From: Microcaldota archaeon | GTDB lineage: Archaea > Micrarchaeota > Micrarchaeia > Micrarchaeales > Micrarchaeaceae | Assembly: GCA_021798935.1 (NCBI GenBank) | Contig: JAJZBL010000002.1 | Coordinates: forward strand, 108,561 to 172,560 | Length of the DNA: 64,000 bases | Direction of reading: 5' to 3' | In this document: in pieces, positions 10,934 through 63,971 of the stretch | Position numbering within the stretch: the first letter of the stretch is position 1 | Layout of the letters: each line of letters begins with the position of its first letter | The notes under the pieces: generated by a model | Told to the model about the DNA's origin: nothing | The model's database searches: none | Seen by the model: only the letters and a program-made list of their open reading frames with translations | Made by a program: the position numbers and the translations under genes

Positions 10934-12433
10934 TTAATTGCCTAGGTCTTTTAGCTTTACTCGTATCTGTGTGGCATCTGATATGTCTCTTACTGTCACA
11001 GTTTCATCATCAAGCGTATTGTAGTCTATAGTTATGCATTTGCCTATACCTATTTCATCTGCCTTTGCATACCTCTTGCCTATGCTTCCTGTTTCTTTAT
11101 AAAATACGCTATAGCCCTTTTCTTCTAATATCTTCTGTGCCTCTATTGACTTATCAATCAACGCATTATCCTTCTGCAATGGGTATACTGCATATTGGAA
11201 TGGCTGAATTACCTTATTGAGCATTAAAACCTCCCATCCTCTCTTTTCATCTTTGTAAAGGTTGTTTGACATTACTGCCCAAAATAACCTGTCCAATCCA
11301 AAACTGACTTCTATTACATGAGGCAATACACCCTTGTTATCATCTAGGACTGTCATATCTGTATTTGACATCTTGCTATGGTTAGATAGATCAAAATCTG
11401 ACCTATAAGCATTTCCTGCAACCTCTTCGTACTTGCCATTTACCTTTATCTCCAAATCAATATTGCCCTTTGAATAATGAGGCAGCTCATCTGCCATAAG
11501 TATCCTGAATCTTGCTAAGTCCTCATCTATCCCTAAAATTTCCAATAATCTAGATTCTTTGTAAACCATATAAGCAAATATTTTGTTTGGGATAAGCCGC
11601 AACTTTAAAGCTTCAAGCAATGATACCTTTTTAGCATCTTCATTCTTTGCTTGATCCTCCCTGCTCAGAAGGTAAATTTTCTTGCTCAAAAATTCATCAT
11701 TGATCTTTTGGTTATTTATCAATGGTAATTCATCAGCTTTTTCTGGATTAAAGAAGTATTCAAGTTCCATCTGTGAGAACTCTCTCATCCTTATTAGTAT
11801 TTGCCTTGGTGAAATTTCATTCCTGAAAACTTTTCCTTCCTGTGCTATCCCTATAGGCAACCTAAAATTATAGCTTTTGTAAAGTTCTTTAAAATCAACA
11901 AATACCCCCTGAGCAGTCTCTGGCCTTAAATAACCTATAGTGCCGCCAGTTGGCCCTACCTCTGTCTTCATCATCAAGTTGAATGCTGTAATTTTTGAGA
12001 ACTCTCCCTTGCACTTAGGGCAAGTTATATTGTATTTTGACACTAAACCTTGCAGTTCATCTAAACTCATATGCCCTACATTCTTTGCCAATTCATAATT
12101 TTTTTGCTTTTCAAAAAACTCCTCTAAGAGTTTGTCTGCTCTATATGTTGAGCCGCATTTTACACACTTTAATATTGGATCAGTAAAGGTCTTTACATGC
12201 CCGCTTGCTTGGTATACCTTATCATATCCTATTATTGTAGACTCAATTTCTAAGTTTCCCATTTCTTTTACAAACATTTTCCTCCATAGCGATTTAATGT
12301 TTGATTTTATGCTTAGACCTATAGGCCCATAATCATAGAACCCTGCCAGTTCGCCATATATCTTGAATGATGGTATTATTATTCCCCTTCTAGAACAAAG
12401 ATTCATCAATTGATCTACATTTTCTTTTTCCAT
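10934..12433 (-). CDS. glyS: Glycyl-tRNA synthetase, class II alpha2 type
   Basis: Charges tRNA-Gly. Class II motifs are visible: motif 1 GLSIKSNIKSLWRKMFV, motif 2 with RPETAQGVFVDF and GKVFRNEISPRQ, and motif 3 HVIEVSFGLDRLFWAV. The insert carries a zinc site (CVKCGS ... CPKCKG). The C-terminal anticodon-binding domain starts near VIQPFQYAVYPL. Length 499 aa is at the short end for archaea. First gene of the GlyRS-OGG-translin operon. Confidence 0.95.
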   Translation of the reverse strand: MEKENVDQLMNLCSRRGIIIPSFKIYGELAGFYDYGPIGLSIKSNIKSLWRKMFVKEMGNLEIESTIIGYDKVYQASGHVKTFTDPILKCVKCGSTYRADKLLEEFFEKQKNYELAKNVGHMSLDELQGLVSKYNITCPKCKGEFSKITAFNLMMKTEVGPTGGTIGYLRPETAQGVFVDFKELYKSYNFRLPIGIAQEGKVFRNEISPRQILIRMREFSQMELEYFFNPEKADELPLINNQKINDEFLSKKIYLLSREDQAKNEDAKKVSLLEALKLRLIPNKIFAYMVYKESRLLEILGIDEDLARFRILMADELPHYSKGNIDLEIKVNGKYEEVAGNAYRSDFDLSNHSKMSNTDMTVLDDNKGVLPHVIEVSFGLDRLFWAVMSNNLYKDEKRGWEVLMLNKVIQPFQYAVYPLQKDNALIDKSIEAQKILEEKGYSVFYKETGSIGKRYAKADEIGIGKCITIDYNTLDDETVTVRDISDATQIRVKLKDLGN

Positions 12434-14481: not shown

Positions 14482-15513
14482 TCAATCTTTTATAGAAGCT
14501 ATATCTCCAAATGCCTGAAGCTGTTGTCCGACTTCATCTAATGAATTTATTATATCTATTTTCACTCCATAGCTCTCGGCTTTTGCCAGCAGCCTTTTTA
14601 TATCGTTGTCATTAAGCTTGCTGTCATTTACAATAATCTCGCCTACCTCGTAGTTGTCTAACGCTTCTTCAACATCTTTTATGCCATATTTTGAATATCC
14701 CAATGACAGGTTTTTTAGGAACTTTTCCATAAGTTCAAATTCACTCTTTATAAGCTCATTCTCCATAAGCTTTTTCACACTATCACTCTTTATAAGCTCA
14801 TATACTCCAGATTTTTCTGTATTGCTTACGTCCATTATCACTATAGTTTTATTTAGCTTATTTGAAGTCGGCACATTGTCTATATAAGATTTGATATCGT
14901 TTTTGGTAAATCCTGGCCCGGCCAATATGACAGTGCTTACATCCATGTTATTGATTACATCTATCACTTTATTGAAAAATTTTGTCTGCAGCTCTGCATA
15001 TTCCTTTTGGCTTAGGTTCTTGCTTAAATTATTGTATATTTCACTGCCGAATTCTATCCCATATCCTAAAATTTTTGCTGAAAATGCCTTCTCGTCATCA
15101 ACTAAAACTATACCTAATTTGGGCCTGCGCGATTCTTTTGCCTCTTTGTAGAGAAGGTCTAATATGTAATCTTCCCATTTCTCTTTTGTTATCTCAACTT
15201 TATCTCCTGAAGCTATATTTAAGGTATGATGGCTGTTCAGCGATACATATTCAAGAGGCTTTCCGTACGTTATCTTTCCTAATACTCTCAGCCTTGATGC
15301 ACTCCTATCAAGTTCTATCTTTTCAACTTTAACTTCAATTATGACATCTTTTAATTCCCCGACATCAGTCTCACTTGCTTTGTATTTTCTTACTGTTTTA
15401 GTCTTTACAAGATCTCCTGGAAATATTATCCTTTCAAGAGCCCATAGATCCTCAAGGGTCTCCACTAAAACTGATACTTTTGATTCGTCTTTATAGTATT
15501 TAAGTATCTGCAA
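14482..15513 (-). CDS. pelA: Pelota/Dom34, mRNA surveillance factor
   Basis: eRF1-like protein that rescues stalled ribosomes with aIF2/EF-1A-type GTPases (ABCE1 follows for splitting). The N-terminal Sm-like domain reads VETLEDLWALERIIFPGDLVKTKTV, followed by a central domain and the C-terminal segment GEIIVNDSKLNDNDIKRLLAKAESYGVKI. 343 aa is the standard length and there is no GGQ motif, as expected for Pelota. Divergent from dedA, with 38 bp between starts. Confidence 0.93.
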   Translation of the reverse strand: MQILKYYKDESKVSVLVETLEDLWALERIIFPGDLVKTKTVRKYKASETDVGELKDVIIEVKVEKIELDRSASRLRVLGKITYGKPLEYVSLNSHHTLNIASGDKVEITKEKWEDYILDLLYKEAKESRRPKLGIVLVDDEKAFSAKILGYGIEFGSEIYNNLSKNLSQKEYAELQTKFFNKVIDVINNMDVSTVILAGPGFTKNDIKSYIDNVPTSNKLNKTIVIMDVSNTEKSGVYELIKSDSVKKLMENELIKSEFELMEKFLKNLSLGYSKYGIKDVEEALDNYEVGEIIVNDSKLNDNDIKRLLAKAESYGVKIDIINSLDEVGQQLQAFGDIASIKD

Positions 15514-15551: not shown

Positions 15552-16172
15552 GTGATACTAATTTATTACTTGTTGATATCTCTTAGCTCATTATCTAAGG
15601 AATTGCCCAGCATAATAGAATCTTATGGTTATGCATCTGTAGTTGTACTTATGGCGCTGGAAAGTGCATCGCTTCCATTGCCAAGTGAAGTTATCCTCCC
15701 TACTGTAGGATTCTTGGTTGAAAAAGGCTTTATGAACTTTTACATTGCCTTGATAGCTGCATTGATAGGCAGCTTTATTGGGATAATGGTGGACTATTAT
15801 ATAGGGTATTATTTAGGCAAGGACTTTATCTACAAAAACCTTAGGTTATTTCATATTAAAAAAGAAACTTTGGACGACTTTGATTTGTGGTTTGACAAGA
15901 ATGGTGAGATAGCAGTATTCTTTTCAAGGATGATACCTGTAATAAGGGGCCTTATAAGCTTCCCTGCAGGATTTGCCAATATGGACAAAAGGAAATTCAT
16001 AACTTATTCGATGGTAGGAAGCCTGATATATGACGCTCTGCTTATACTGTTTGGAATGTATGCATTGTCAATTGGCAATATAGTTGAATTGATGGCAGCA
16101 ATTAGCATATTCGCAGTGCTATTGATAGCAGTTTATAAATTATTCATGCATTATTTAGTAAAGAAAAAATAG
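15552..16172 (+). CDS. DedA family membrane protein (SNARE-associated/VTT domain)
   Basis: Polytopic inner-membrane protein of the DedA/VTT family, associated with lipid flipping. Signatures: ESASLPLPSEVILPTVGFL near the N-terminus, then FFSRMIPVIRGLISFPAGFANM, with about five hydrophobic spans in 206 aa. It begins at GTG 15552. It ends 8 bp before the left target-site duplication of the casposon, so before the insertion it faced tRNA-Glu across a gap of only ~9 bp. Confidence 0.88.
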   Translation: MILIYYLLISLSSLSKELPSIIESYGYASVVVLMALESASLPLPSEVILPTVGFLVEKGFMNFYIALIAALIGSFIGIMVDYYIGYYLGKDFIYKNLRLFHIKKETLDDFDLWFDKNGEIAVFFSRMIPVIRGLISFPAGFANMDKRKFITYSMVGSLIYDALLILFGMYALSIGNIVELMAAISIFAVLLIAVYKLFMHYLVKKK

Positions 16173-16180
16173 CAAATTTA

Positions 16181-16194
16181 TTGCTTTAAATGCT
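16181..16194 (+). repeat. Left target-site duplication of the casposon
   Basis: TTGCTTTAAATGCT, identical to 23543-23556. Fourteen base pairs is the duplication size reported for casposons. The last AGC (read on the minus strand) copies the 3' end of the tRNA-Glu acceptor stem. Confidence 0.92.
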
Positions 16195-16247
16195 GGGGTT
16201 ATATATAAGTTGATGAAATGTCCCTCTTTTCTAACATAGTCTTAGCA
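16195..16247 (+). repeat. Left terminal inverted repeat
   Basis: Three blocks are shared with the right end: GGGGTTATATATAAGT (16195-16210), AAATGTCCC (16216-16224) and TTCTAACATAGTCTTAGCA (16229-16247; one mismatch to the right copy). The spacer between the second and third blocks is short here and about 40 bp longer at the right end. Confidence 0.88.
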
Positions 16248-16285
16248 TGGAGAGGGGCTGAGAAAGAAAGAATTTTGCCTAAATA

Positions 16286-17356
16286 TCAAAGTGTTACTTT
16301 CTTGAAAAGTATTGTCATATGGTCTTTTATTGACTTATTCTTTTTATTTTTATATTTATCTATGATGTTATCTTTACTAGCTCTAATACGATTACTACGT
16401 ACTTCAGTATAATGATTTAATATTCCAAGAAGGTTTCCTTCAACAGCTATCTGTAAACTAATAATATTTATTTTCTTATTTTTATCAGCATCTATCATTT
16501 CTTTCAACGGTTTTATTTCTTTCTCCAAATTGAGTTTCTCGCCCCTTTCCAAATCTAAGTAATGATACCATTGCAGTAACTCTTTCTTAACTTTATGCAT
16601 TTCTTCTATCGTTAGTTTTTGTTCATCTTCATCTATAATATCTTGTACTTTCCTTTTTGCATCCTCATAATCACTTACTGTATCTCTACAATCTTGTATT
16701 AAATCGTCTAAATGATTAATTAGTTCTTGATTTGTTTCCCCTATTTTATTATGTATATCATCAAGCTCTTCATTTAATTCTTCAGAGTATTCTGTATTTC
16801 TCCTACTATTAAAATTATTTTTTATACCACTACGTTTATACTCCAAATCTGATATTCTTGAATTTAATCTACTAATCTTTTCTCGGTATTTGCTAATCTA
16901 GTCTTCAAAATCATATATATCTTCAGCGTCATATTTTTTAACTCCTAAACTAATTCGATAGTTGTCATTAGATATAATTTCCTCGTAATCCTTTATTTTC
17001 TTTATCGTTTCAGCCAGCTCTACATTTTTACTTTTTAACAATTTCTCTCCGTCAAACACCACCTGATTGTTTCTTAATTTAACTTTCTTTATGTTGGTTC
17101 TATTCTTTAAGTTCTTATTTACAAAAGTCTCTGTCTTTATCTTTGTATATTTATTCTTCTGTTTTTCTATAAGTTTCTCAAGGGCTTCATTTACAATAGT
17201 TATCTTCTTTTCCAGTTTCAATAAAGAGTCATAATCAGGGTCTACATCCAAATTTTCTAAGTCTTTACTAAATTGTCTATACTTAGCACTCTAGTCTTTT
17301 AATCCATTCAGAAAAACTTTATTTTCCTCCTTTAGTTTTCAGTGTTTATTTTCCAT
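16286..17356 (-). pseudogene. Coiled-coil protein gene broken by in-frame stops
   Basis: One continuous minus-strand frame from ATG 17356 to TGA 16286, interrupted by TGA (17339-17341), TAG (17291-17293) and TAG (16898-16900). The pieces are Lys/Glu/Asn-rich coiled coil with no catalytic motif. The sequence around the two TAGs is similar (KD-stop-SAKYRQ and ED-stop-ISKYREK), as if a repeated leucine heptad codon (TTG) had mutated twice. It lies between the left TIR and an HTH remnant. No recognised family. Most likely a decaying casposon gene. Confidence 0.5.
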
Positions 17357-17390
17357 TAAACTAAAATTTCGCTCTGGAATTACTATAATC

Positions 17391-17630
17391 TCACCTTATT
17401 TTCATCATCTTATTCACTGTTTTCTTCTCTAATGTTATCTTCTTACCATCTTTTATCTTTTTCTTCAACCTGAACAAGTGCCTTTTAGACAATCCGATGC
17501 ATCTAGCGTCTTTCGTTGTCATATTCTTGATAACTTCTGTTATCCTTTGTCCTGTTGCCTTCAAATAGAACGTCGAATGAGTTGGGGTGTCATTGTAAGC
17601 GAAGCATGCAGGATCTCTTGAAGTCTCAGG
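17391..17630 (-). pseudogene. Orphan HTH fragment homologous to the casposon PolB C-terminus
   Basis: The open frame carries ITEVIKNMTTKDARCIGLSK then RHLFRLKKKIKDGKKITL, almost the same as the PolB tail at 22420-22570. The DNA of 17446-17510 is the exact inverted complement of 22449-22513 (65 bp). Upstream residues (TSRDPACFAYNDTPTHSTFY) are not recognised. No ATG is present; a TTG before KATGQR is possible. Probably a rearranged piece, or the end of a second HTH-tailed gene. Confidence 0.6.
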
Positions 17631-17649
17631 TCAATCCTAAAGAAAGAAT

Positions 17650-17712
17650 GAAATAAATATATTGTGGTTGAAATAAATTTATGGTAAGATGTAAATCAAA
17701 TTCTACCATAAA
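17650..17712 (+). promoter_or_regulatory. Cargo-gene promoter with inverted-repeat operator
   Basis: A TATA-like AAATAAATATATT at 17651-17663 precedes the inverted repeat TTTATGGTA (17678-17686) / TACCATAAA (17704-17712), about 55 bp upstream of the ATG at 17767. The position just downstream of the TATA box suits repression of the DGQHR gene. Confidence 0.5.
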
Positions 17713-17766
17713 TGCAATAGGTGGCAGAAATTGTTCTATCAGCAATACTGTGGATAGGTAATTTAA

Positions 17767-20070
17767 ATGACGCAAATAAATAATAATGGGCCCAACTTTT
17801 TTGGTGAATTAGTTGATGAAGAAGATCTTAATATAATAGAAGAAGAAAAACAGAGAGAGTTTACGGAAATTAATATACTTAACAAAGATATAGATAATTA
17901 CAAAAACTGGGAAGTTTGGAAAAGTGGTAAAGACAAAAGTGTACTTAGAAAACCAAAAAGCGATGATGAACTCTTCGAAGACAAAACATGGATTTTATTT
18001 AAGCGAATGGGATTCCAACAATTAAATAGAGATAGGAATTTTAAGATAGCAGTAAATGGAAACCCTAAACAGATAGATGTTTTTGCCAAAGATGAAGACA
18101 ATGTTTTCATTATAGAGTGTAAATCATCAATCGAAATATCAAATAGAAGCATAGATCATGATATTGATGATATACTTTTAGCAATAACCGATTATAAAAA
18201 AGCAATAAGAAACGAGTATGGGAAAAACTTTCGAATATCATTTTTAGTAGCGATAAAAAACATAAAATTAAGTAAACAAGAAAGAGATTATATAAGCTCA
18301 TTAAAACAGAAGGGATTATTCATTCTAACTATTGAGGACATAGATGCATATTTAGAGCTTGCTAATCAACTCGGAACAATCACAAAGTTCCAATTCTTTC
18401 CTTTGATTTTTGGTCATAAAAGAAGTTCAGAACTAACCAATATAACAGTACCCGCTATGCATATAGGTAAAGGAAACAACAAGTATTACGTATTCGTTAT
18501 ACAACCCAACAAATTGATCAAGTTAGCCTATGTTTATAGAAAAGAACTGGCAAGTCCACAACAAGCATTAGGAGCATACCAAAGATTAGTAAACAGAAAG
18601 AGGCTAGAAAACATAAAAAAATACCTAGACGGTGGCGGTTTTTTTCCAAATAATATAATAATAAACTTTACTCAAAAACCCACGTTTGAGCCATTTGCTA
18701 GTAAGCAGGAGTTTGGAGATATTCCTTATGGTAAGCTGACACTACCACCTTATTACGGGAGTGCTTGGATTATAGATGGGCAACACAGACTATTTGGTTA
18801 TGCAAAGACAGATAAGAAGGATTCAGGAAATCTAATGGTAGTAGCTTTTGATAACCTCGATGTTAAAAAACAAGCGAATCTATTTGTAGAGATAAACGTA
18901 AATCAAAAATCAATAAATTCGAATTTGTTGTGGGACATTTACCCAGATATATACGAAGGTTCTGAAGATGCAAAACAATTATCACTAAGAACAATATCAT
19001 TAATTGCAAAGAAATTGAATGGCGAAAAGAAATCGCCATTTTATAATAGGATTAGAATACCAAGTATTAGAATTTCACAAAAGGATACAAACTATACGAA
19101 CCTAACGTTGACAAATATATGTGACAGTATATCAAATAATGAACTAATAACAGATAATGGGGGGTTATTATTTAGAGAGACTTACGAATACTCTATAAAT
19201 TTTGCATTTGATATAGTAAAGCAATTTTTTGATTATGTTTCAGATAAACTAAAAGAGGATTGGGAACAGGGAGAGGAGGGACTAGTCAGAACCAATATAG
19301 GGTCAAGTATATTATTCATAATTTTTGGCCAATTCATTAAATGGTTGAACTACAAAGAGATAAGTTATAATGATTCTGAGAAGTTTAACGCGGAAATTAA
19401 AATTTTAGATGACATATTCGATAAATTAACTAAGATGACACCAGCTGAGAAAGGAACAATAAAAAGATCCAGTTCGGAAGCGTCAAAACTAGAAACTGCA
19501 CAGAAATTAATATGGGATCTTAAAGAGAAAATCGGATTCGGAGTTGGATTATGGAAAAAAGGTGGGTGGACACTAAACATACCTAATGAAGAAAACTCTA
19601 ATAATGCCATTAATAGCTTAACAACAGAAACAGAAAAAGCCCTCAGAAAACTGATAATATTCGAACTCAAGAGAATTCACGGAGAAGGGGTTTGGTTTAA
19701 AGTCGGTATACCTGCTGGGGTGAAGGATAACATAGAAAGAGGCATTCAAAGGGACATAAACAAGTTTCCGTATATGCGAGAAGAAAAGGAAAAATTGGCG
19801 GAGGATGAGAAATTAGTTTATACAGACATAGGAGATCTAAAAGAGATAATAGTATACGGACAAAATTGGGAAAAGGCATTTATAAATATATTCTCCAAGG
19901 ATAAAGAGCTAACAAGGATAGCATTCGAGTATTATGCTGCGTTGCGAAGCATGCGTGATCCAATCCATCCTGATCGTAATCTAGATGATATCGGACGTGG
20001 GTTGGGCTATTGGCATACGCGTTGGATAAGAAGATGTATAGGTCTGGATACTACCATGTATACTACATAA
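17767..20070 (+). CDS. REase-fold plus DGQHR-domain protein (casposon cargo)
   Basis: A 767-aa cytosolic protein. Residues ~70-200 look like a restriction-endonuclease (Mrr/PD-D/ExK) fold: QIDVFAKDEDNVFIIECKSS gives Asp104, Glu117 and Lys119. Residues ~220-420 are a DGQHR/DndB-like domain with IIDGQHRLFGYA (337-341) and the family's NVNQKSINSNLLWDIYP segment. The C-terminal ~200 residues are helical with RDPIHPDRN, weakly HEPN-like (uncertain). DGQHR proteins occur with DNA phosphorothioation and other defence loci, so this may be a DNA-sensing nuclease carried as cargo. The gene is full length while the mobility genes are broken. Confidence 0.75.
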   Translation: MTQINNNGPNFFGELVDEEDLNIIEEEKQREFTEINILNKDIDNYKNWEVWKSGKDKSVLRKPKSDDELFEDKTWILFKRMGFQQLNRDRNFKIAVNGNPKQIDVFAKDEDNVFIIECKSSIEISNRSIDHDIDDILLAITDYKKAIRNEYGKNFRISFLVAIKNIKLSKQERDYISSLKQKGLFILTIEDIDAYLELANQLGTITKFQFFPLIFGHKRSSELTNITVPAMHIGKGNNKYYVFVIQPNKLIKLAYVYRKELASPQQALGAYQRLVNRKRLENIKKYLDGGGFFPNNIIINFTQKPTFEPFASKQEFGDIPYGKLTLPPYYGSAWIIDGQHRLFGYAKTDKKDSGNLMVVAFDNLDVKKQANLFVEINVNQKSINSNLLWDIYPDIYEGSEDAKQLSLRTISLIAKKLNGEKKSPFYNRIRIPSIRISQKDTNYTNLTLTNICDSISNNELITDNGGLLFRETYEYSINFAFDIVKQFFDYVSDKLKEDWEQGEEGLVRTNIGSSILFIIFGQFIKWLNYKEISYNDSEKFNAEIKILDDIFDKLTKMTPAEKGTIKRSSSEASKLETAQKLIWDLKEKIGFGVGLWKKGGWTLNIPNEENSNNAINSLTTETEKALRKLIIFELKRIHGEGVWFKVGIPAGVKDNIERGIQRDINKFPYMREEKEKLAEDEKLVYTDIGDLKEIIVYGQNWEKAFINIFSKDKELTRIAFEYYAALRSMRDPIHPDRNLDDIGRGLGYWHTRWIRRCIGLDTTMYTT

Positions 20071-20236
20071 AAAGGCTTATTAAGTGTCACTATAAATATA
20101 GGCATGGGACTCAAATGGGTTTGAAAGGTATATAAATTCGCATCCTAGTGACATACCCACAAAAATGCGTTATATTAACGCGATACAAATAGACGCTGCT
20201 TCTAGGTGTTAAAGATACATACACAAAACTGCTTCT
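20071..20236. other. Intergenic gap with an inverted repeat between convergent cargo and cas1
   Basis: Contains TGTCACTA (20085-20092) and its inverted copy TAGTGACA (20146-20153), 53 bp apart. It could be a long-loop terminator or an old transposon end. No ORF seen. Confidence 0.3.
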
Positions 20237-21219
20237 TTATTTATAAACAGCATTATTGATTTTACTTATAACTTTGCCATAAACATTGATTTTCTTTCCT
20301 TCTTTTATGTGTCTTTGGATATACCACAGCGTTGACTTATTTATACCTAACCTCCTGTGGTCTTGTGGCATTAGGCTTAGCACCTTACTTCGAATGTCCG
20401 TATTATCCTCTCGCTTTATCTTGAATTCTGGCACATTGAATTGGAGCTTGCCCGATTTGCCAATTATGTAGTTAGCCAGCAACCTAACGTTTTCGTATAG
20501 CATGTTCTGGTAGCTGTAGCATTTGCCGTTGTAGAACGCTCTGGCATTGAAGTTCAGCCGTATCTTCTCGATCAGTGCCTTTGCCGTATTCTCTCTTAGC
20601 CTTATGTTGTAGTTCTCTGTTACGATAAAATCAGCCTTTTTAGCTTCTTTTCTTCTAGTAACTGTATCACCGATAAGTCTACTAGCCACCTATAAAGCTC
20701 CTGAATGTCGTAAACAAGAGGGGCTCTGCTGTTCGACAACTCGTGCAAGAAGCTTATCGAAGGATCAAGACTGATGGAATTGAGGTCTTTCCTAACCTCT
20801 GATTCCAATACAGCATAGCCGTAGTTCAGCAAGGCGTTTACCTCATCAGAGGCGTTGCGATTATGTGAGTTCAGGGTGTTGTTTCTGCTAACGAACTTGA
20901 ACTCTGGGCATAGTTTATTGAACGCCTTTAGAATTTGAGACCAGTAAATGTCAGCGATTCTGCCCTCATACATCATAAGGTTGCGGTAATCGTAAGTGGT
21001 CTTCAGTTTGAACGTCGACTCTTTATTCGATTCCGAACTTATCGTATTCGCATCCATCTCTTTGTAGTATTTTGATAGCTCATTCAGTAGATTTATTGAC
21101 TGTTTGACCTTCTCTTTGACTATGGGATAGGCTATGCCATACCTTCTCTCCTCATCTTGATATATCTCATACTGCCTTAGCCTCAGTTTGCTTGATACTG
21201 TTTCTTTTGGCATTTCCAA
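20237..21219 (-). pseudogene. cas1: Casposase (Cas1 integrase), N-terminally truncated, -1 frameshift
   Basis: Frame 1 (21219-20620) holds the Cas1 helical domain: Glu85 in MMYEGRIADIYW, NASDEVNALLNYGYAVLES, His159 in LDPSISFLHE, and Asp171/Glu174 in LVYDIQELYRWLVD. These are the expected metal ligands. Frame 2 (20689-20237) continues with ADFIVTENYNIRLRENTAK and ends in an HTH (HRRLGINKSTLWYIQRHIKEG), the tail typical of casposases. The frames join by a -1 shift at CTAAAAAGG (20635-20643). The N-terminal beta domain (~80 aa) is missing: an in-frame stop lies just before TTG 21219, where the sequence meets the truncated polB. No cas2 or CRISPR array is present. Confidence 0.85.
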
Positions 21220-22571
21220 AAGGCAAGCAGAACAACCTCAGCACGATAAACCTATTCGGCAAGAACATAGCACCGGAGAAAGATGACTTTATCCGCTATT
21301 TAATCGAACATCGGTTAGAGATAAAGCAGAAATTGAAGCACGACCCAGATAACAAAGACCTCAAGAAAGAGGACTTTATCGCCAAAATAATAGCTAACGC
21401 AACCTCTTACGGCATTTTCGTTGAAGTAAACACACAAAACGAGAGAGTAAATGCAGAAATCTACGGGATAAGTCCGTTTACATGCGAGGTGGATTAGAAA
21501 GAGCAGTTTGGCAGAGCCTTTAACCATATCCTTGCGACCATGCTAACATCAGGATCAAGGCTGATACTCGCTATGGTAGAGGCATACGTGAAGGAAAACA
21601 ATGGTTACTTTGCATATTGCGACACCGACGCCCTATTTGTGAATCCTGAGCTAGTGGGCAAGATTCAAGCTTTCTTCAATCCCTTAAATCCTTATACAAA
21701 TCCAGTTGAAATGTTCAAGGTAGAGAATAATGAAGATGGAAAGCCTCTCCATAATGTTTGGTTTTACGGCATATCAGCTAAGCGGTATTGTTTGTACAGC
21801 ATAGAAGATAACAAAATCGACATACTCAAGCACTCTTCTCACGGATTAGGCGGTCTGATAGGCATAAGCGAGGATGAGATAAAGAATATCTGGAAAGACA
21901 TTTTAGACCATCACTACAATAGGCTATCGAAAGAGGCTATCGAAAGCAAGTATTCAAACAAATTCGTGATGGGCAAGCTGGCATTGACCTCGCCTTTTGT
22001 CTTACAGCGTTTTAGACGCACAAACAAGGATAAGAGGTTAAAGCCGTTCAACTTTGTTATCGTTGGCATAAGGTATAGATTAGACCCATCGACCAAAGAG
22101 CCAATAATACCCATCATGGCTTACACCAAAAACACAGATATCGTGCCGTTTAGTCCATTTACTGATTACAAAACTGGTAAAGAGTACAAAGATAACACAA
22201 AGTATTACTGGAAACCATTTTCAGAATTCCTCTTTAGCTACATAGATCATAACGATGGGAAGTACGATGGCGATATAGGAGAATTGAGAAGGAAACAAAT
22301 TGTTATTGGAGATATAGAGCATATTGGAAAAGAGTCAAACAACCTTGAAGAGAGCGAAGTTATTGGTGTTTCGGATAACGATTACGTTATCTATGATAAC
22401 AAAACAGAGCAAAAGATAGCTGATGTTATCAAGAATATGACTACAAGAGACGCTAGATGCATCGGATTGTCTAAAAGGCACTTGTTCAGGTTGAAGAAAA
22501 AGATAAAAGATGGAAAGAGGATAGTATTAAAAAGGAAAATGTTAAAGAAGTTAATGAAACAGATAAACTGA
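21192..22571 (+). pseudogene. polB: Family B DNA polymerase, C-terminal part only, with internal TAG
   Basis: Palm and thumb region of a protein-primed-like/casposon PolB. KIIANATSYGIFVEV (motif B region) and ATMLTSGSRLILAM lead into YFAYCDTDALFV, the motif C Asp-Thr-Asp. TAG at 21495-21497 interrupts an otherwise continuous frame (EVD-stop-KEQFGRAF). The exonuclease domain and motif A are absent: homology starts at ~21215, exactly where the divergent cas1 is also cut. The C-terminus (CIGLSKRHLFRLKKKIKDGK) is an HTH like that of the casposase. Confidence 0.83.
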
Positions 22572-22843
22572 TGTATATGAAACCTAAAACCATTGGCGGA
22601 TTAGCTCTCATGTTGGTGGGTGTAGGAATAATAGTCCATGCCTTTTTACTATGGAACTCTAATTTTCAGCTTAGCAAAGCTACAAATCCAAATTTCGTTA
22701 TAAATTCAATGATAATAAGTGTTGTATATATTATCCTTATCATAGTAGGCATACTCACATTTATCAGCGGCGGATTGATAATTAATAAAGATAAAACTTT
22801 AAGGATAATGGGAATTTTATATGCTAAATTAAACAGAAAATAG
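22571..22843 (+). CDS. Small two-helix membrane protein (casposon cargo)
   Basis: 90 aa with two clear transmembrane helices (GGLALMLVGVGIIVHAFLL and ISVVYIILIIVGILTFISGG) and a basic C-terminus. No family recognised. The ATG shares one base with the polB stop, so it was probably translated in the polB operon. Confidence 0.5.
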   Translation: MYMKPKTIGGLALMLVGVGIIVHAFLLWNSNFQLSKATNPNFVINSMIISVVYIILIIVGILTFISGGLIINKDKTLRIMGILYAKLNRK

Positions 22844-22864
22844 AAAAAGCAAAATAGTGTGCTT

Positions 22865-23425
22865 ATGAATATAGATAAAGAATTAAGTAAATTTTATGAA
22901 TCCTTAAAACTTGCGCTTACTCTAATAACGATACTAATTCCAATAATTTTGTTTTTAGGTAATATCTCTATTGGAATTGAGAGTATAAGTAACCTTGCTT
23001 CAAATAATAATTTTGGATCTAACATAAATTGTAATGCGGCAAATACAATCTCCGAGTACTATTCTTGTCAGTTAAATATTACTGAACATTCATATATGCC
23101 ACAGTATAAGACATTAGCGCTTAATATTACTTTCATAATTATGTTGATTGCTCTAGTATTTAGCATTCTTATGTTGTCTCAGCACGTAAATACTAAAAAG
23201 AGAAGTTTATTACTAACATTTGCAGGATTTTTCATTTTGATTCTTTGGAGCATTACTATGTCAAGGATAGAAGTCTACACACTACCTATGGGAACGGCAA
23301 TTGTAATCTCCCTAGCAAATATTACATTCATGTGGCTTTTTGTATTTATGACAATTTATATTATAATTATGGCAATCACACCATTAAGGTCTTTACTGTT
23401 TAATAAAACAGGCAAAAGAAGTTGA
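22865..23425 (+). CDS. Four-helix membrane protein (casposon cargo)
   Basis: About 186 aa with an N-terminal helix, an extracytoplasmic loop containing two cysteines (NCNAANTISEYYSCQ) and potential N-glycosylation sites, then three more helices. ATG 22865 is preferred over GTG 22859. It is in the same frame as the preceding 90-aa gene but separated by a TAG and 21 nt; I treat them as two genes. Function unknown. Confidence 0.5.
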   Translation: MNIDKELSKFYESLKLALTLITILIPIILFLGNISIGIESISNLASNNNFGSNINCNAANTISEYYSCQLNITEHSYMPQYKTLALNITFIIMLIALVFSILMLSQHVNTKKRSLLLTFAGFFILILWSITMSRIEVYTLPMGTAIVISLANITFMWLFVFMTIYIIIMAITPLRSLLFNKTGKRS

Positions 23426-23449
23426 TATGACCCCTAATTAGTTACGTTG

Positions 23450-23542
23450 TGCTAAAACTATGTTAGAATCCTGCTTTTTTGAAACACAAAATTTACCGAC
23501 GACAAAAAGTGGGGGACATTTGTGGCACTTATATATAACCCC
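23450..23542 (-). repeat. Right terminal inverted repeat
   Basis: The complement of 23527-23542 is GGGGTTATATATAAGT, identical to the left end. AAATGTCCC and TTCTAACATAGTTTTAGCA (23450-23468) recur in the same order. The right end has ~40 extra bases between the second and third blocks. Confidence 0.88.
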
Positions 23543-23556
23543 TTGCTTTAAATGCT
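23543..23556 (+). repeat. Right target-site duplication, overlapping the tRNA-Glu 3' end
   Basis: TTGCTTTAAATGCT, perfect match to 16181-16194. Its last four bases are the complement of the tRNA discriminator A and terminal acceptor bases. Confidence 0.92.
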
Positions 23557-23627
23557 CCCACCGAGATTTGAACTCGAGTTTCAGCCTTGAGAGGGCTGTG
23601 TCCTTGACCGGGCTAGACGATAGGAGC
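23553..23627 (-). tRNA. tRNA-Glu (anticodon CUC)
   Basis: Cloverleaf read on the minus strand: acceptor GCTCCTA with TGGGAGC, anticodon stem CAGCC/GGCTG with loop CTCTCAA, T-loop TTCAAAT, discriminator A, no encoded CCA. It is intact because the casposon regenerated its 3' end through the target duplication. No intron. Confidence 0.93.
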
Positions 23628-23689
23628 ATATATATTGCAGGTTAATTTGAACATTAATATTATTAATAATTTTTGTTAGCCTGTGCTTT

Positions 23690-63884: not shown

Positions 63885-63971
63885 CCCGTTGTAGCTCAAT
63901 GGTAGAGCGGCCGGCTGTAGCCTGTGTAGAAAGAAACCGGCAGGTTGGGTGTTCAAATCACTCCAACGGGA
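63885..63971 (+). tRNA. tRNA-Tyr (anticodon GUA) with a 15-nt intron
   Basis: C1-G72 acceptor CCCGTTG/CAACGGG as in archaeal tRNA-Tyr, D-stem GCTC/GAGC, anticodon stem GCCGG/CCGGC. The intron CCTGTGTAGAAAGAA (63921-63935) sits after G37. CTGT pairs imperfectly with AAAG to give a relaxed bulge-helix-bulge. Removal leaves the 7-nt loop CTGTAGA. T-loop TTCAAAT, discriminator A. Confidence 0.9.

Follow-up and report, generated by a model that had tools for sequence, protein, structure and literature searches.

We analyzed a 64,000-nucleotide stretch of a micrarchaeal genome assembly (the window) and found that positions 16181-23556 very probably hold a casposon of the family 2 type. The insertion point is the 3' end of a tRNA-Glu gene, and the element is likely immobile by its own enzymes. 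Casposons, mobile elements with a homolog of the cas1 gene, are the proposed ancestors of the spacer-acquisition machinery of CRISPR (clustered regularly interspaced short palindromic repeats), and the carriers named in the matching passages of published surveys are Euryarchaeota, Thaumarchaeota, and some bacteria. The casposon host range would become wider with closely related copies in small-genome DPANN archaea. The window genome is an assembly of 857 kb in 10 contigs. Relatives of the same order are named 'Candidatus Micrarchaeota' by NCBI (phylum Microcaldota, kingdom Nanobdellati), in agreement with the small-genome DPANN host suspected in the original prediction, which had been made from the sequence alone. 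The window genome (G000) was compared with 59 relatives, giving a set of 60 genomes; G and L numbers below denote genomes and loci.

Element borders and the empty site

The element is bounded by two copies of the 14-mer TTGCTTTAAATGCT, identical at 14 of 14 positions and without a third copy in the window (Table 1). Terminal inverted repeats lie directly inside these duplications. Their outer 16 bases are identical, as are 34 of the first 60, and an exact 16-base inverted match occurred in none of 200,000 random pairs of window positions, the best pair reaching 12 of 16. The right duplication overlaps the 3' end of a tRNA-Glu(CTC) called by ARAGORN on the minus strand. By the ARAGORN borders the overlap is 5 nt, within the 4-7 nt of family 2 casposons, and the motif TCAAATC is located 8 nt upstream of the duplication within the T-arm of this tRNA.

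The congener G002 represents the empty site. It encodes a DedA-like protein (the name DedA is our assumption) which is 91% identical to that of the window, and its tRNA-Glu region begins 22 bp beyond, with a single copy of the target region. When the window flanks were joined with one duplication and compared with G002, 201 nt aligned with 83.6% identity and 5 gap positions. Because of this empty site, the element is an insertion, which occurred later than the split from G002 or was lost in G002. In the second congener, G001, tRNA-Glu is about 300 bp from DedA, and the casposon end motif was not found in the assembly. The identical outer repeat bases, the exact duplication, and the empty site together fit the casposon superfamily. 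The duplication at the exact borders, the identical inverted repeats, and the overlap with the tRNA end had all been predicted and hold. The prediction had also proposed looking for an empty site and placing the Cas1 in a tree, and both results favor a casposon.

Table 1. Positions of the casposon features and of the flanking genes in the window
Feature	Position	Strand	Basis
DedA-like host gene (presumed name), left flank of empty site	15552..16172	+	ORF (open reading frame)
Left 14-bp target site duplication TTGCTTTAAATGCT	16181..16194	.	exact repeat
Left terminal inverted repeat and subterminal block	16195..16256	+	87% identity over 62 nt to L019 left end
Coiled-coil-like frame (by eye), decayed; TAG at 16898-16900, further TAG and TGA upstream of 17251	16286..17251	-	ORF reading
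Second polB 3'-end relic (C-terminal HTH), 85% over 156 nt to right copy	17391..17570	-	sequence comparison
Cargo ORF, uninterrupted, 767 aa, DGQHR/DndB-like domain	17767..20070	+	TIGR03187 E 5.9e-43; PADLOC DpdB E 1e-28
cas1 3' part, shifted frame: Cas1 domain end and C-terminal HTH tail	20237..20689	-	alignment
cas1 middle part (catalytic Glu, His, Glu), truncated 5' at deletion junction	20620..21212	-	Pfam, alignment
Internal deletion junction, 4261 bp missing vs L019	21212..21214	.	BLASTN vs L019
polB 3' part: presumed motifs B and C (YCDTD), C-terminal HTH, in-frame TAG 21495-21497	21214..22571	+	BLASTN, alignment
Small membrane-like ORF (by eye), 90 aa, cargo	22571..22843	+	ORF reading
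Membrane-like ORF (by eye), 188 aa, cargo	22859..23425	+	ORF reading
Right subterminal block and terminal inverted repeat	23448..23542	-	sequence comparison
Right 14-bp target site duplication, overlapping tRNA-Glu 3' end	23543..23556	.	exact repeat
tRNA-Glu (CTC), target gene	23552..23628	-	ARAGORN

The casposase and its relatives

The window Cas1 matches Pfam PF01867 with an E-value of 4.8e-41 over profile positions 75-256 only. Its catalytic codons are Glu (20965-20967), His (20743-20745), and Glu (20698-20700), and its helix-turn-helix (HTH) tail is retained in the downstream frame. The original prediction was right about the Cas1 and the HTH and wrong about one catalytic residue: the site is not Glu/His/Asp but Glu/His/Glu, as in the Methanosarcina mazei casposase (E162, H232, and E247, with tRNA-Leu as the target, according to the relevant passages of PMC6977970).

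A Cas1 profile search matched 11 of the 60 genomes, ten of them above the curated cut-off. Full-length cas1 genes of the casposase type (392-405 residues) are present in five genomes, three in the family of the window genome (G007, G012, G019) and two in its order (G049, G055); a partial Cas1 is found in five (G000, G010, G033, G043, G053). Four of the five elements were bounded (L016-L019) and measure 8.5-13.1 kb, within the published casposon sizes of 6-16 kb given in passages of PMC4046053 and PMC6563490. All four have 14/14 duplications and the common 13-base end GGGGTTATATATA. A further bounded element outside the 60-genome set (L060) has a full-length cas1, a 14/14 duplication, and the same end. 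tRNA-Glu adjoins three of the four elements and tRNA-Ser adjoins L017.

The core of family 2 casposons consists of Cas1, PolB, an HNH protein, and two HTH proteins. The genes of L016-L019 form two divergent blocks with polB, an HNH-like ORF, HTH-like ORFs, and cas1. Most names of the relatives' genes come from motifs read by eye, with few Pfam matches: the HNH-like ORF has none, and the HTH-like ORFs gave one weak match below the cut-off. A zinc-finger-like ORF is common to the bounded relatives but was not detected in L017, and in L019 one HTH-like ORF is split over two frames. PolB is full-length in the relatives, with motifs A, B, and C recognized by eye. The PolB of L016 has no Pfam match and gave a weak profile match to PolB structures (E 5.7e-05), best around motif C.

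Family 2 casposons have an HTH at the C-terminus of Cas1 and a similar one at the C-terminus of PolB, and both are found here. The C-terminal end of the window PolB aligns with those of the relatives and resembles the Cas1 tail by eye, and residues 354-384 of the Cas1 tail have a match (58%, E 7.3e-05) at the PolB 3' end of L054. The nearest solved relative is PDB entry 6opm, the casposase structure of PMC6977970 as described in its relevant passages. The L016 casposase matches it over residues 2-396 of 399, tail included (E 6.7e-78, 265.8 bits), and the next Cas1 scores 94.7 bits. The L016 protein is thus similar to the M. mazei casposase in length, Glu/His/Glu site, and tail type, whereas the window copy lacks the N-terminal part and the two targets differ (tRNA-Glu here, tRNA-Leu there). 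The element agrees with the casposon superfamily: it has a Cas1-type integrase outside a CRISPR locus, with casposon gene neighbors in the relatives, and a polB, of which the 3' half is present in the window.

In a tree of 29 rows, the window Cas1 falls in a six-row group with G007, three Micrarchaeota records, and one further protein. This places it among HTH-tailed Micrarchaeota casposases and away from the one long-branch CRISPR Cas1.

Casposases were also seen outside the genome set. A Nanoarchaeota (Nanobdellota) record, L056, encodes a casposase of about 400 residues with polB and HNH relatives nearby, in a second DPANN phylum. Nitrosopumilus/Nitrosarchaeum casposases of this type occur with PolB in L054, L055, L057, L059, and L062, with tRNA-Glu(CTC) in the same stretch in L059 and L062. 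The casposase of L063, on a contig labelled Acidobacteria, groups with the Nitrosopumilus ones, and the label is likely a binning error. In L058 (Thermoplasmatota), a PolB-end-like stretch followed by a Cas1-tail-like stretch occurs twice, at 11155-11547 and 14491-14883.

Internal deletion and likely loss of self-mobility

Both core genes of the window copy are broken. The cas1 gene lacks its first ~80 codons, and its frame changes near 20620-20689. The original prediction had noticed that Cas1 lies in two frames; the frameshift is real, and the damage is larger than it suggested. The predicted family B polymerase fragment is the C-terminal part, corresponding to residues 433-868 of a relative's 883, with residues 1-432 including motif A gone. 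It carries an in-frame TAG where the relatives have a sense codon, and the segments which we take to be polymerase motifs B and C (YCDTD) are retained.

BLASTN against L019 locates the junction. The cas1 homology ends at window position 21212 (L019 10007), and the polB homology starts at 21214 (L019 5745), which leaves a gap of 4261 bp relative to L019. As the two genes are divergent, a single deletion there would take away both 5' ends and the intervening genes. G010 has a similar deletion with other breakpoints and a 7-bp homology overlap at its junction. The window element does not have the complete cas1 and polB of an autonomous casposon, owing to the deletion, the frameshift, and the in-frame stop; since both genes are broken, its own enzymes are likely unable to move it. 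The G+C content is 0.39-0.41 in the cas1/polB parts (20237-22571) and 0.29-0.30 in the left part and the right ORFs.

These observations are consistent with the following course of events. The casposase (Cas1 with the HTH tail) would recognize the tRNA 3' end, probably via the T-arm motif TCAAATC 8 nt upstream. Its joining of the GGGGTTATATATA ends to the two target strands at points 14 nt from each other would produce the 14-bp duplication and leave the tRNA intact. A single deletion relative to L019, a frameshift, and a nonsense codon, in any order, would then have given the broken copy. As the ends are retained, the window element could move in trans via the casposase of another copy. We infer this possibility because cas1-less elements with matching duplications are found in sister genomes, as described below. 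An engineered mini-casposon translocated in M. mazei, according to the relevant passages of PMC10359463.

Casposon ends and elements lacking cas1

Fifty copies of the 13-base end are spread over 28 of the 60 genomes, and there are 5 copies of the reversed pattern. Thirty-two of the 50 ends are properly oriented and within 5-15 nt of a tRNA 3' end, compared with 33 of 78,000 positions drawn at random from these stretches. Many genomes of the order thus have casposon-like ends adjoining tRNA genes, the neighbors of the 32 ends being tRNA-Glu (14), tRNA-Pro (10), tRNA-Arg (4), and tRNA-Ser, -Gln, -Gly, and -Ile (one each). Of the 32, 27 have TCAAATC at a distance of exactly 8 nt upstream, or 29 when one mismatch is allowed; the A. 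boonei casposase needs TCAAATC 8 bp upstream of its site, according to passages of PMC6614799. Among the other 18 ends, two-ended elements account for ten, as their partner or inner ends, and two belong to the doubtful locus L110. Those in L119, L121, and L142 have a T-arm-like sequence outside with no adjacent ARAGORN call, and those in L112, L127 (at 2484), and L128 are three without explanation. The natural integration sites would be numerous enough to read the target rule from them (tRNA 3' ends with a 14-bp stagger).

Eighteen of the 28 end-bearing genomes, most of them incomplete assemblies, have no Cas1 profile match. TBLASTN revealed C-terminal cas1 relics at six loci in five of these 18 genomes (G005, G021, G025, G032, G048) and polB 3' relics at seven loci in seven of them (G005, G016, G021, G025, G032, G035, G051). 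For most single ends, no partner end was found within the fetched stretch.

Three two-ended elements without cas1, with 13-14 matching duplication bases, are likely non-autonomous casposons, judging from their ends and duplications. L120 (G053:C11, 5351-9529) is a 4151-bp element at tRNA-Glu with a 14/14 duplication and 127-bp perfect inverted repeats, and it looks recently moved. TBLASTN with the core proteins did not find core genes in it; only the end of a cargo gene is common to L019. Its remaining ORFs encode, among others, a DDE transposase, an FkbM methyltransferase, and an IS200-like fragment. With the DDE gene a different mover is conceivable, but the element has the ends, the 14-bp duplication, and the tRNA site of a casposon. 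L136 (G022:C2, 8626-9527) is a 0.87-kb element at tRNA-Glu with a 14/14 duplication, one degenerate end, and a single gene for an NAD-dependent epimerase. L123 (G033) adjoins tRNA-Pro, and its duplication matches at 13 of 14 bases after a one-base shift. Neither L123 nor L136 gave a core-gene match at E 0.1. L110 is doubtful as a clean cas1-less element, for its duplications are not directly aligned with the right end.

The three elements resemble MITE-like (miniature inverted-repeat transposable element) non-autonomous DNA transposons and the engineered M. mazei mini-casposon in keeping ends and duplications without the transposase gene. Natural cas1-less casposons were not met in the passages of the literature searched, and the relevant part of PMC7043111 treats casposons and MITEs separately. 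Internally deleted and cas1-less derivatives would make mobilization in trans directly testable. In L018 (1351-1390, G019:C3), two casposon ends face apart across one common 14-bp duplication at tRNA-Glu, which likely reflects a tandem insertion. The left end of the first tandem element was not found within 13 kb, and no cas1 or polB match was obtained there. In L060 (14601-14660, FK3.bin92), an 18-bp palindrome, GGGGTTATATATAACCCC, lies between two more near-identical copies of the duplication beside the tRNA-Glu casposon, and resembles two casposon ends with an empty interior.

Likely horizontal spread of the casposase

Identity to the window genome was compared between elongation factor 2 (EF-2), the only conserved housekeeping protein used, and the Cas1 fragment in 10 genomes. 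The EF-2/Cas1 identities are 76/90% for G007, 70/84% for G019, 67/86% for G055, and 67/91% for G060, whose kinship is not given. The casposase value is clearly above EF-2 in these four and barely so in G010 (72/75%, over 71 Cas1 residues). G012 (72/60%) and G049 (65/60%) show no such excess, and the value for G026 (67/30%) concerns a Cas1 of the CRISPR type. The congeners G002 and G001 have EF-2 identities of 96% and 90% and no Cas1. Because the casposase identity exceeds that of EF-2 in four genomes and the congeners have no casposase, transfer of casposases between genera and families is likely. A recent transfer from a Thermoplasmatota host to its symbiont was looked for among the 16 loci of one search, and none is visible in L058 (the one near-complete Thermoplasmatota casposase there, 52% identical) and L064 (partial, 47%).

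A broader picture, which we put forward with as much doubt as confidence, is a micrarchaeal casposon economy. A few complete family 2 casposons would jump between genera and families, and more numerous cas1-less cargo elements with the same ends would have been moved recently in trans. The tRNA 3' ends would serve as gene depots, and the window element would be a decayed carrier of a defence-type gene.

Alternative explanations

Several points weigh against a single insertion of a family 2 casposon. The tree fork which holds the window Cas1 is drawn open with a support of 83/96, only 49% of the columns are filled in the window row, and the sole CRISPR outgroup forms a very long branch. The tree rows are relatives found by similarity, without named references of casposon families 1, 3, and 4. 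G049 has a full-length cas1 and polB, and neither the exact end motif nor borders were found within its 19.9-kb stretch. The spacing of TCAAATC largely follows from tRNA anatomy at a fixed insertion point, and is consistent with the proposed target recognition rather than independent evidence for it. The window copy has lost the HNH, HTH, and zinc-finger genes that a complete element contains. Finally, a second polB relic on the left side means that the element may be composite.

This last point leads to the best surviving alternative, which refines the casposon assignment rather than replacing it and for which the evidence is evenly balanced. Two casposons would have been inserted in tandem at the same tRNA-Glu, and a deletion between them would have left one outer pair of ends. 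The second polB 3' relic is oriented as beside the L019 left end. In comparisons of 156-166 nt, the right relic is 88.6% identical to polB of G005 and 87.0% to that of G010 and of G016, but only 85.3% to the left relic. Elsewhere in the set, two casposon ends abut across one common duplication in G019, and the inner end blocks are mismatched in the decayed G010 element. Tandem insertion is known for Methanosarcina and Nitrosopumilus casposons, as stated in passages of PMC6563490. However, the relic comparison covers only ~156 nt, and the best match of the left relic is the right one, which would also allow an old internal inverted duplication.

Returning to the casposon itself, a decayed CRISPR-Cas locus with incidental repeats is very improbable, even though Pfam and NCBI name the protein a CRISPR-associated Cas1. 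Among solved structures, the HTH-tailed M. mazei casposase is the closest by a margin of 171 bits, and the relatives reside with polB in elements bounded by inverted repeats and duplications. The sole full-length CRISPR-type Cas1 in the 60 genomes, that of G026, differs: it shares 30% identity over 114 residues with the window protein and has helicase-, Cas4-, and Cas2-like neighbors (by eye). A Pfam scan of the 10 pieces of the element detected no other cas genes; the search did not extend to CRISPR arrays. A CRISPR origin of the window cas1 is refuted in the main by the empty site and the bounded relatives.

tRNA 3' ends are favorite targets of tyrosine recombinases too, so a provirus or island which used tRNA-Glu in this way might merely have acquired cas1. 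We consider this highly unlikely, for Cas1 is the only recombinase matched in the 10 window pieces (the relatives' ORFs were only partly scanned) and in five bounded elements (L016-L019 and L060) a full-length casposase is accompanied by the GGGGTTATATATA ends, an argument somewhat weakened by the G049 casposase without exact ends nearby. It is hardly credible that the element is functional through TAG recoding or a programmed frameshift: the polB stop and two of the three stops in the coiled-coil-like frame are TAG, but the third is TGA, the host DedA gene itself ends in TAG, the polB position is a sense codon in the relatives, all of which speaks against recoding, and the deletion took polymerase motif A and the first ~80 cas1 codons.

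Relation to known casposons

The element and its relatives resemble the family 2 casposons AciBoo-C1 of Aciduliprofundum boonei, those of Methanosarcina, and NitNCS1-C1 of Nitrosotalea in the C-terminal HTH of Cas1 and PolB, the apparent HNH-like and HTH-like genes of the relatives, and the 14-bp duplication at tRNA 3' ends. They differ in the host phylum, as Micrarchaeota (DPANN) are not named as casposon hosts in the passages of the literature consulted, in the internal deletion of the window copy, and in tRNA-Glu being the commonest neighbor of the ends (14/32), with tRNA-Pro second (10/32).

No earlier report of a micrarchaeal casposon was found in the matching passages of the open-licence literature searched. 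The matching passages of PMC5704561, PMC10354927, PMC6393860, and PMC7544198 contain none, and in the main text of PMC12892359 and PMC5864196, as far as it was covered, CRISPR is mentioned and Cas1 is not. A passage of PMC9966878 announces a casposon survey as unpublished, and micrarchaeal casposons may have been described elsewhere.

Cargo and other genes

The only long uninterrupted gene of the element is the cargo ORF at 17767-20070. Its product matches TIGR03187 with 147.6 bits against a cut-off of 58.85, and an N-terminal nuclease-like region was recognized by eye. It shares the DGQHR domain with DGQHR, DndB, and DpdB proteins of DNA-modification defence systems, which suggests that the gene possibly has a defence role. 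It differs from the DndB and DpdB systems in scoring under both cut-offs (DpdB, 97.7 vs 300 bits; DndB, 20.6 vs 328 bits) and in having no dnd or dpd partner among the Pfam-scanned pieces of the element. The cargo protein gave no PDB match. Among the best 120 of 1684 matches, one is 88% identical, one is a partial record with 100% (probably the window protein itself), and the remaining 118 are at or below 47%. The gene is present in two of the 60 genomes, the window's own and G032 (32% identity).

The coiled-coil-like frame and the two membrane-like ORFs have no Pfam or PHROG match. Far from the casposon, the ARAGORN tRNA call at window positions 63885-63971 has an anticodon of two bases (tRNA-???).

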